This document shows, in pieces, positions 10,661-12,791 of a DNA stretch of 14,541 nt. How positions within the stretch are numbered: position 1 is the first letter of the stretch; every line of letters begins with the position of its first letter. This stretch comes from Alphaproteobacteria bacterium (GTDB lineage: Bacteria > Pseudomonadota > Alphaproteobacteria > RF32 > CAG-239): assembly GCA_017557925.1 (NCBI GenBank), contig JAFYWO010000173.1, positions 1-14,541 of the forward strand, in the 5' to 3' direction. The position numbers and the translations under genes were made by a program. Below the pieces are notes generated by a model that saw only the letters and a list, made by a program, of their open reading frames with translations, had not been told where the DNA came from and did no database searches.

Positions 10661-10987
10661 CTAAAATGGCAATTTCAAACCACCTAAGTTTACTCCACCT
10701 GTTGCAGATTTCATACTTTCTTCTGATAAAGCTTCAACCTTTGCGTGCGCATCATTATATGCAACCAAAATCAAGTCTTCCAACATTTCAACATCATCTG
10801 AAGAAACAAGAGATTTATCTATAGAAATTTTTTTCATCTCAGATTTACCGTTTAATGTTATTGTCAAAAGTCCATTAGCTGCCGAACCTAAAACTTCTGT
10901 TGTAGCCAATTTAGCTTGAGCTTCTTCTATTTTTTTTTGCATCATTTGTGCTTGTTTCATAAGACCTTGAATATTTAACATTTTCAT
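10661..10987 (-). CDS. ybaB: YbaB/EbfC nucleoid-associated protein
   Basis: A 108-residue protein with the family pattern: MKQAQMMQKKIEEAQAKL helix, a short beta-sheet (LLTITLNGKSEMKKISI), a helix, and the GGVNLGGLKLPF end. It is a small homodimeric DNA-binding protein that coats DNA and affects expression. The listed start overlaps the dnaX stop (ATGA). The AGAGG inside the end of dnaX is better spaced for the second Met at 10981 (MLNIQGLMKQ), so the true start may be two codons later. Its place between dnaX and recR is highly conserved in bacteria. Confidence 0.93.
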   Translation of the reverse strand: MKMLNIQGLMKQAQMMQKKIEEAQAKLATTEVLGSAANGLLTITLNGKSEMKKISIDKSLVSSDDVEMLEDLILVAYNDAHAKVEALSEESMKSATGGVNLGGLKLPF

Positions 10988-12678
10988 TCCTCTTCTTCAA
11001 AATATGTTATAGATATATCACTTGTAAATTCAGGTTCAGACGGAGCTAATTCTGTTATATTTTTACGAATTATTGTTTCTATCTTTGCACCCTTAAATTC
11101 TTCAAGTATTTTTTTTACTAAGGGATATTCTGCCACATTTTTTGTTTTTGCTTCAACTTTTGTTTTCTCTTTATCCGCAATAGTTTCACCTAATTGTCCT
11201 TGCAGAATATCTATTTCCCATTTTTTACCTGTTGTATCCGTTAAAAGCTTATGCAGATTCAATATAAAGTCCTGCCCTATATTTTGGTTAATGTGCATTT
11301 TGATATAACCATCTTTAAACTCATCAAAACTTATGTCATTTTTTATAGAATATTCTACAATGACCTTTTTATTTTTTTCTAAATAACGTAAAAAATCATC
11401 AACCGTATAAAAACTTTCACACGCCTTTTGGTTATACAAAACTTCTACTTTATTTTTTTTTTCAAAAGCAGTTTGCTTTTCTTCTGTAGCGGATATTAAA
11501 TTAGAGTTTTTTTTTACCTCATTTAATAATTCATACGGAGTAGGAAGTGATGCTGAATATGCAACACGCAACAATACCATTTCTAAAGCCTCAACTGATG
11601 ACGGGGCTAAATTTAACTCACTAATTCCTTTTATAAGCATTTGCCATATTTTAGATAATATAGCCAACGAACAATCACTACTCAAAGCTGAAAAAACATT
11701 ACGCTCAATTTCGCTAAAGTTTGTTGAATTTAGAAAATTAGGAACTATTTTTACTTTTGCAATATCGTGCGTTATGTTAATTAAATCCTGCAAAATTATC
11801 AAAGGAGTTGCACCAAAGGTATATTGCTCTTGAACATTGCTCAACACTTTGTCCATATCCCCTTTTATTAGATTTTCAAACAGAGTTAATGTTTGTGTTC
11901 TATCAGCAAGACCTAACATTTTTTTCACAACATCTGTTTTTATATCTCCATTGCTTAAAACGATTGATTGGTCTAACAATGATAAACCATCCCTTGCTGA
12001 ACCGTCTGCAGATTTAGCAATAATATCCAAAGCTTCTTCTTCTGTAGGGATATTTTCATTTTTTAGAATTTTAGTAAATAATGACTTTAACGTTTCAACA
12101 CTTAAACGTTGTAAATCAAATCTCTGACAACGAGAGAGAATCGTAACAGGAACTTTTCTAATTTCTGTTGTTGCAAATATAAATTTCACATGAGCAGGTG
12201 GCTCTTCCAATGTTTTTAATAATGCATTAAAAGCGCCATTAGATAACATATGCACCTCATCAATAATATAAACTTTATAGCGAGCATTTGTAGGAGCATA
12301 ACGAGCACTATCCAACAACTCTCTTATATCTGCAACACTTGTATGAGAAGCAGCATCTAGCTCCATAACATCCATATGCCTGCCTTGAGCTATTGTTTTG
12401 CAATTATCACATTCTCCACAAGGATGAATTGTTGCACCACCTAACCCGTCTTTACCTGTGCAATTTAACGCTCTTGCGATAAGACGAGCTGTTGTTGTTT
12501 TACCAACTCCTCTTATACCTGTCAAAATATATGCATGATGAAGTCTGTTATTTTGTATAGCATTAGTTAATGTTTGCACTAAAGCATCTTGCCCTAGCAA
12601 ATCTTCAAAATTTTGAGGACGATACTTTCGTGCTAAAACCACATATTGATTTTCTTTATTTTCTGCAACCATTTCCAT
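10984..12678 (-). CDS. dnaX: DNA polymerase III subunit tau (with likely gamma form by slippage)
   Basis: The protein has 564 residues. Clamp-loader ATPase features: Walker A GIRGVGKT (54-61), zinc-site cysteines (Cys87, Cys90, Cys93 with Cys73), Walker B DEVH (140-143), sensor 1 FATTE, and the SRC motif (182-184). Domain III ends near 375 (LLRVAYSAS), followed by a linker and a divergent C-terminal tau region (about 420-564) that would contact polymerase and helicase. The linker carries runs of nine (11507-11515) and ten (11453-11462) coding A residues, where one-base slippage either way gives a quick stop. The start has no clear Shine-Dalgarno sequence and lies about a dozen bases after the SRP RNA; the third codon is an alternative ATG. 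It is followed by overlapping ybaB and then recR. Confidence 0.95.
   Translation of the reverse strand: MEMVAENKENQYVVLARKYRPQNFEDLLGQDALVQTLTNAIQNNRLHHAYILTGIRGVGKTTTARLIARALNCTGKDGLGGATIHPCGECDNCKTIAQGRHMDVMELDAASHTSVADIRELLDSARYAPTNARYKVYIIDEVHMLSNGAFNALLKTLEEPPAHVKFIFATTEIRKVPVTILSRCQRFDLQRLSVETLKSLFTKILKNENIPTEEEALDIIAKSADGSARDGLSLLDQSIVLSNGDIKTDVVKKMLGLADRTQTLTLFENLIKGDMDKVLSNVQEQYTFGATPLIILQDLINITHDIAKVKIVPNFLNSTNFSEIERNVFSALSSDCSLAILSKIWQMLIKGISELNLAPSSVEALEMVLLRVAYSASLPTPYELLNEVKKNSNLISATEEKQTAFEKKNKVEVLYNQKACESFYTVDDFLRYLEKNKKVIVEYSIKNDISFDEFKDGYIKMHINQNIGQDFILNLHKLLTDTTGKKWEIDILQGQLGETIADKEKTKVEAKTKNVAEYPLVKKILEEFKGAKIETIIRKNITELAPSEPEFTSDISITYFEEEE
11453..11515 (-). promoter_or_regulatory. 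Candidate slippage site in dnaX: A9 and A10 tracts with a 7-bp hairpin between them
   Basis: On the coding strand an A9 tract (11507-11515) and an A10 tract (11453-11462) flank an AAAAGCA/TGCTTTT hairpin with a 3-nt loop (11464-11480), which ends one base before the A10. At the A10 tract, a one-base insertion, or a -1 ribosomal slip at A-AAA-AAA, gives Glu-Lys-Lys-Lys-stop at 409 residues. A one-base deletion stops at 410. At the A9 tract the corresponding products stop at 392 and 393. Confidence 0.55.
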
Positions 12679-12689
12679 TAACTTTTAAG

Positions 12690-12778
12690 GCGAAGGGATG
12701 CAGACCTTGTCTAAACTGTTACGGCTGCTTTCTTCCGAACCTGACCGAGTTGGCAGCAATCCAACCCTGCACCCTTCA
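12690..12778 (-). ncRNA. ffs: Signal recognition particle RNA, small bacterial type (4.5S)
   Basis: The minus strand holds the diagnostic SRP apical core: GGTCAGGTTCGGAAGAAAGCAGCC includes the GGAA-type tetraloop region and the asymmetric loop bound by Ffh. The outer ends pair as GAAGGG (5') with CCCTTC (3'), followed by TGCAG with CTGCA, giving the long hairpin expected for a 90-100 nt SRP RNA. With Ffh it targets nascent membrane proteins to FtsY and SecYEG. Exact ends are estimated from the terminal helix. It sits between the lpoA-like gene and dnaX, about 12 nt from the dnaX ATG, with no separate terminator, so it may be processed from a shared transcript. Confidence 0.93.
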
Positions 12779-12791
12779 TATATTTTTATCC

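Follow-up and report, generated by a model that had tools for sequence, protein, structure and literature searches.

The dnaX gene of the window, by which we mean the whole 14,541-nucleotide stretch of alphaproteobacterial DNA analysed here, probably encodes two proteins (with a probability of about three in four by our own estimate), the second of which would arise through slippage of RNA polymerase on a tract of A residues backed by stops in both alternative frames. RNA polymerase would slip on a run of nine A (A9) and, in this genus, also on a run of ten (A10), leaving a share of the mRNAs with extra or missing A's; on these mRNAs, translation would meet a stop just beyond the tract in either alternative frame and release a gamma-type clamp-loader ATPase of 392–393 residues (A9) or 409–410 residues (A10), terminated shortly past domain III and devoid of the tau tail, the unslipped mRNAs yielding the 564-residue tau. 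The conservation of the tract at silent sites and that of the stops in both frames are read directly from the sequences; the slippage itself, its mainly transcriptional nature, its rate and the use made of gamma are what we infer from them. The two tracts had been singled out in a preliminary description of this DNA, and the observation is confirmed, on grounds stronger than those available at the time.

The gene (DNA polymerase III gamma/tau; positions 10,984–12,678, minus strand, 564 codons) matches the NCBIfam profile PRK09111 with 709 bits (cut-off 604) and the Pfam families DNA_pol3_delta2, DNA_pol3_gamma3 and DUF3646, so that both the clamp-loader AAA+ domains I–III and the tau tail are present. 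Domain III (PF12169; 11,518–11,937, minus strand, residues 248–387) is the last folded part ahead of the A9, and the tau-only C-terminal domain (DUF3646, PF12362; 11,071–11,403, minus strand, residues 426–536) would be missing from the truncated products. In the AlphaFold model of DnaX (mean pLDDT 72.4, pTM 0.46), the pLDDT falls below 50 at residues 379–387 and 389–419, i.e., in the linker. Immediately upstream of dnaX lies a bacterial small SRP RNA (RF00169, 58.2 bits; 12,686–12,780, minus strand). The family of the window belongs to the GTDB order RF32. Among public contigs, the closest named relatives of this dnaX come mostly from alphaproteobacterial metagenome assemblies of animal-gut origin, in which homopolymer lengths can be wrong; Azospirillum sp. 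CAG:239, also a family member, is more distant.

The A9 (11,507–11,515, minus strand) reads GTA AAA AAA AAC TCT and extends from the third base of V388 to N391; it thus starts in codon 388, Pfam domain III ending at residue 387. One additional A (or a −1 ribosomal shift) leads to a TAA at 11,501–11,503 (minus strand) and a 392-residue gamma, and one A fewer leads to a TAA at 11,496–11,498 (minus strand) and a 393-residue gamma. The A10 (11,453–11,462, minus strand; GAA AAA AAA AAT AAA, E406–N409) follows 44 bases past the A9 and is itself closed directly by a TAA in the insertion frame (11,450–11,452, minus strand; 409-residue product) and by a TAG in the deletion frame (11,445–11,447, minus strand; 410-residue product). 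The position of both tracts in the linker after domain III, as first described, is borne out by the sequence and by Pfam, and the four product lengths agree with those that we worked out by hand from the sequence. The zero frame stays open for 174 codons beyond the A9 and encodes tau, hence the gene does not have the reversed arrangement discussed below, in which tau is the slipped product.

The conservation of the first tract was examined across a family set of 152 genomes, of which 146 have a whole or partial dnaX and 142, from 16 genera, a readable linker. Among the other ten, dnaX is partial in four (G008, G071, G138 and G148) and either not found or represented by a weak paralogue-like match only in six (G017, G034, G046, G117, G127 and G142). 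All 142 readable genomes carry an uninterrupted run of nine to eleven A at the site (A9 in 88, A10 in 52, A11 in 2) and none has a shorter one; the distance of the run from the end of domain III is constant (offset of 47 bases in 141 genomes and of 48 in one), whereas the linker past the tract diverges in both length and sequence. Tract and stops are thus kept while the linker beyond them drifts, which is the pattern that the preliminary description had expected of a functional tract in relatives, and the synonymous AAG that it regarded as evidence to the contrary occurs at K389 or K390 in none of the 142 genomes.

At the codon level, the site stands apart from the rest of the gene. K389 and K390 are encoded by AAA in 142 of 142 genomes. 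Counting from the N-terminus up to the tract, there are 204 conserved columns, and these two alone have one codon throughout; the next most uniform column reaches 96%, and the other nine conserved Lys columns vary between 65 and 92%. With one genome per genus, third-position identity at four-fold sites is 0.35 between genera (0.26 expected), i.e., silent sites are near saturation, so that the fixation of these two codons points to selection and not to recent ancestry. The codon before the run is GTA in 82 genomes, TTA in 44, ATA in 15 and ATT in 1. Over the 140 in-frame genes, to which the codon statistics were restricted by excluding the two A11 genomes G123 and G125, its last base is A in all but one (139; 24.3 expected from the usage of each gene), the exception (G040) having ATT followed by a run of ten A; elsewhere in dnaX, of 1444 Val, Leu or Ile codons that precede Lys, 424 have A as their last base.

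These figures bear on the idea that the A-runs are a by-product and merely reflect a protein motif (Lys-Lys-Asn) that is conserved in an A-rich genome, with no role in expression. The residues are indeed well conserved (K389 and K390 being nearly invariant) and AAA accounts for 78% of the Lys codons, yet the synonymous positions are fixed without any need of the protein. When synonymous codons were permuted within 141 genes, 1880 of 7050 trials (27%) still had a run of at least nine A at the first site, against 142 of 142 genomes observed, and other Lys-Lys pairs across dnaX are AAA AAA in 209 of 364 cases. The Asn after K390 has become Lys in five genera, where the run nonetheless still reaches at least ten, and two of the 142 genomes (G014 and G109) have AAG as the codon following K390, so that the A9 stays unbroken and a G comes next. 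The next gene, ybaB (YbaB family, PF02575), offers a control with an A9 of its own (10,930–10,938, minus strand) that is not conserved: among 121 distinct sequences (loci L001–L200, nearly all from this family), 73 have Lys-Lys at the site and only 39 of these 73 use AAA AAA, the codons drifting freely. The by-product reading is therefore strongly disfavoured by the sequence comparisons, and we regard it as extremely improbable.

Closely spaced stops complete the pattern. Both shifted frames are closed within nine codons of the first tract in 140 of the 142 genomes: the insertion frame (one A gained) meets a stop after 1–5 codons in 141 and after 9 in the remaining one, and the deletion frame (one A lost) after 1–6 codons in 140. 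The caveat, raised at the outset, that stops abound in AT-rich out-of-frame sequence is answered by within-gene controls, since stops equally close in both frames are found at a mean of 3.4% (maximum 9.8%) of the other positions of the same 140 genes. In addition, where the codon at +3 encodes Leu, it is TTA or CTA, either of which closes the deletion frame, in 75 of 96 cases (23.4 expected).

AT-richness alone is likewise rejected as an explanation of the tract, both by the within-gene controls and by the presence of tracts in genes with up to 52% GC (the GC content of the 140 in-frame dnaX genes is 0.315–0.524), and several members of the class with a GC content of 0.29–0.37 have no linker run of at least nine A (G312, G321, G227, G362 and G213). 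A moderately low GC content does favour both stops and A-runs, which counts against the slippage reading. Outside the linker, none of the 142 dnaX genes has a run of at least nine A; over domains I–III (156 kb), this absence compares with 1.4 runs expected by permutation, numbers too small for a conclusion, and runs of eight A are commoner than expected (9 seen, 3.1 by permutation). The genome of the window itself contains 91 overlapping 9-base windows of A or T, a number that does not establish any genome-wide avoidance of A9. The tract-plus-stop motif (ATA A9 CTCTGA) recurs in one relative at a genomic position away from dnaX (G044:C35:3677-3693). Two dnaX frames are broken elsewhere, in L013 (G003) at the C-terminal end and in L016 (G004) 32 codons past the tract, possibly through assembly errors.

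How the frame is changed is a separate issue. One known case is that of E. coli, whose dnaX undergoes a −1 ribosomal frameshift at A_AAA_AAG. The gene of the window resembles it in encoding the same type of product with a stop shortly past the shift site, but differs in that the family shows no stem-loop or Shine-Dalgarno (SD) stimulator, lacks A_AAA_AAG in 140 of 142 genomes and has both frames closed. For the downstream stem-loop, the folding energy of the following 60 nt, ranked within the same genes, has a median percentile of 0.52 (n = 142), with 11% of the genomes under the 10th percentile (energy only, no pseudoknots); for the upstream SD-like motif, there is none in 133 of the 142 genomes and a 4-base one in nine; the heptamer A_AAA_AAG occurs in neither tract of the window and in two of the 142 relatives. 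The sole genome checked for tRNAs (G002; 38 tRNA places) has tRNA-Lys with both UUU and CUU anticodons. Given the lack of stimulators and the two Lys tRNAs of this relative, slippage of RNA polymerase as in Thermus would fit better than ribosomal frameshifting as in E. coli, and the two levels may both contribute. Slippage of the Thermus type would be expected to yield mRNAs of heterogeneous tract length, and gamma and tau in a ratio of roughly 1:1.

A purely ribosomal origin of the same gamma, by programmed −1 frameshifting or by sliding on AAA codons of uniform transcripts, nevertheless keeps a minor but appreciable probability in our view. The heptamers A_AAA_AAA, A_AAA_AAC and A_AAA_AAU lie in frame within the tracts, the two relatives noted above end theirs in the very shift site of E. 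coli, the stop in the insertion (−1) frame is the more uniform of the two in the family and comes first in 112 of 140 genes, and sliding of ribosomes on poly-A has been reported (PMC4363877; this and the other papers given by PMC number are cited from excerpts). Against it, besides the missing stimulators and the two Lys tRNAs of G002, stands the rarity of A_AAA_AAG, the most shift-prone version among those compared in E. coli according to the excerpted PMC5009743. Moreover, the deletion frame is also kept closed by TTA or CTA at +3, which a mechanism shifting only to −1 would not need; in the order of G241 (see below), 15 of the 28 tracts at the same offset meet their deletion-frame stop first, and the insertion-frame stop lies up to 16 codons off; and the runs are held at nine or more although a heptamer would suffice.

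Polymerase slippage thus has its closest known counterpart in Thermus thermophilus, whose dnaX contains an A9 subject to transcriptional slippage (PMC5009743, PMC1088944) with nearby stops in both other frames (PMC5009743). The window shares with it the run of nine A, the tau in the open frame and the near stops in both frames, and one relative (G002) shares the two Lys tRNAs, a feature that the same excerpted review suggests to be linked to polymerase slippage in Thermus. In a large share of genomes, selection against slippage becomes visible once a run is nine nucleotides long (PMC1088944). The present case differs by its alphaproteobacterial host and by the tandem A10 of the genus. The proposal that this lineage makes gamma by slippage on plain A tracts is supported as far as the conservation of tract and stops is concerned, the slippage step itself being probable.

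The further suggestion of two tracts acting in tandem stands for the first tract across the family; the second is better described as an addition of the genus with scattered parallels. A run of at least nine A deeper in the linker is found in 34 of the 142 family genomes, and the A10 in all 16 readable members (of 18) of the genus of the window. Outside the genus it is scattered, which makes the tandem arrangement characteristic of this genus. In these 16 genomes, the deletion-frame stop follows the A10 by 1–2 codons throughout, and the insertion-frame stop by one codon in 12 and by 8–10 codons in four. The hairpin noted ahead of the A10 (11,464–11,480, minus strand) is a perfect one of 7 bp in the window, as described, but it is not conserved: the longest perfect stem measures 7, 6 and 5 bp in one genus member each, 4 bp in four and 3 bp in one, and is absent from eight. 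A role as a general stimulator is thus rejected. A weak case can be made for G000, G003 and G005 alone (stems of 7, 6 and 5 bp; 4 bp in G002), because a nascent hairpin does stimulate slippage in an IS element of Roseiflexus (PMC5009743, in excerpt).

Two family genomes depart from the rule. In G123 (L198) and G125 (L199), the tract is A11, the zero frame ends four and six codons on, respectively, and the tau tail lies in another frame; either these assemblies are one base too long, or tau depends on slippage in these organisms. They could also be taken to mean that the tract is a site of phase variation or decay, at which slippage during DNA replication would silence tau in part of the cells or in certain species. 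However, the length is in frame in 140 of 142 assemblies, the tau tails of both A11 genes still carry PF12362 (E-values of 2.8e-21 and 1.3e-22) and hence are not decaying, and the A11 itself may be an assembly error, so that this explanation has next to no probability.

Beyond the family, a search of 240 genomes of the class matched 226, from which 64 loci, completed by G152, which represents a different family within the order of the window, gave a set of 65; the 64 comprise 27 of the 30 best-scoring matches (the other three belonging to the present family) and 37 hand-picked ones, so that they are not a random sample. Calling a tract closed when the nearer stop lies within 6 codons and the farther within 16, 15 of the 65 loci have a linker run of at least nine A with both frames closed, one is reversed, 43 have none, one is short and five are cut by a contig end. 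Every genome of the class set with at least nine A within 260 bases is either closed or reversed. Eight of the 15 closed tracts lie at the identical offset (families f2, f51, f23, f40 and f91) and seven elsewhere in the linker. Twenty further class loci, hand-picked from the list and all with a GC content of at least 0.53, contain no linker tract of at least nine A. For the order of G241, 43 genomes gave 38 matches, of which 37 were examined; the tract is present in 33 and at the same offset in 28, and an A9 or A10 at offset 75–82 is found in eight loci (L319–L325 and L408). In five of them (L319, L320, L321, L325 and L408), the first tract is either missing or reduced in length, looking as though one tract had taken over from the other. 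As isolated observations, two stops close the dnaX frame of L232 (G257), which has no A-run, about 27 codons beyond the anchor, its tau tail being possibly lost or split, and the open frame reported for L240 (G317), at 1064 aa, greatly exceeds the length of the other dnaX frames.

In the order of G292, 15 of 17 genomes matched, and dnaX is reversed at all 15 loci (L351–L365). There, an A9 or A10 is followed by G, the zero-frame stop comes 2–4 codons on and the −1 frame is open for 65–187 codons; the three tau tails scanned all carry PF12362. A strong downstream fold occurs at one of the 15 loci (L355) and SD-like motifs at three. This order and the two A11 genomes recall the two-ORF dnaX genes of reversed type described by Antonov et al. 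2013, which have poly-A runs of 7–10 (10 in nine genes; PMC3711429, in excerpt), from which the window differs in having tau as its zero-frame product.

In Caulobacter crescentus, a member of the same class with the same gamma/tau outcome, gamma is produced differently, through cleavage of DnaX by ClpXP (PMC5422525, PMC5009743, both in excerpt), and the Caulobacteraceae-type loci L103 and L104 have glycine-rich linkers without an A tract. One could thus suppose that the gamma of the window also comes from ClpXP trimming of tau, the tract being secondary. This precedent from an alphaproteobacterium notwithstanding, such trimming would leave the A tract and the conserved out-of-frame stops unexplained, and we deem it very unlikely as the main source; trimming and slippage could also coexist.

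The tract label is clustered in a quick tree of DnaX domains (123 rows), with at least eight label changes on starred branches, and the deep forks are weakly supported, so that neither a single old origin nor repeated gains of the tract can be read from it. A broader scenario can be put forward tentatively, although we judge it somewhat less probable than its contrary: outside the GC-rich models, Alphaproteobacteria might commonly make gamma by slippage on an A tract at a set position behind domain III. The trait would be old and belong to a large clade, within which tracts would have been lost, moved or doubled, with one order reversed (tau being slipped) and the ClpXP cleavage of Caulobacter a replacement; the tandem tract of the genus of the window would then provide two gamma lengths and a higher share of gamma. 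We found no earlier report of dnaX slippage in this clade in the open-access PMC literature, which is no proof of absence; the mechanism is known from Thermus, and the apparent novelty lies in the taxon, in the tandem arrangement of tracts and in the contrast to the proteolysis of Caulobacter.

In practical terms, homopolymer “errors” in assembled dnaX genes should not be corrected by default. If polymerase slippage is indeed at work, a single bacterial class would reach gamma and tau by three routes, namely proteolysis, slippage that gives gamma, and slippage or frameshifting that gives tau. The role of gamma in the replisome has long been disputed even in E. coli, though it is taken as established in the excerpted review (PMC5009743); purifying selection at silent sites for a truncation of DnaX, across 142 genomes, would argue independently that the short form is wanted.
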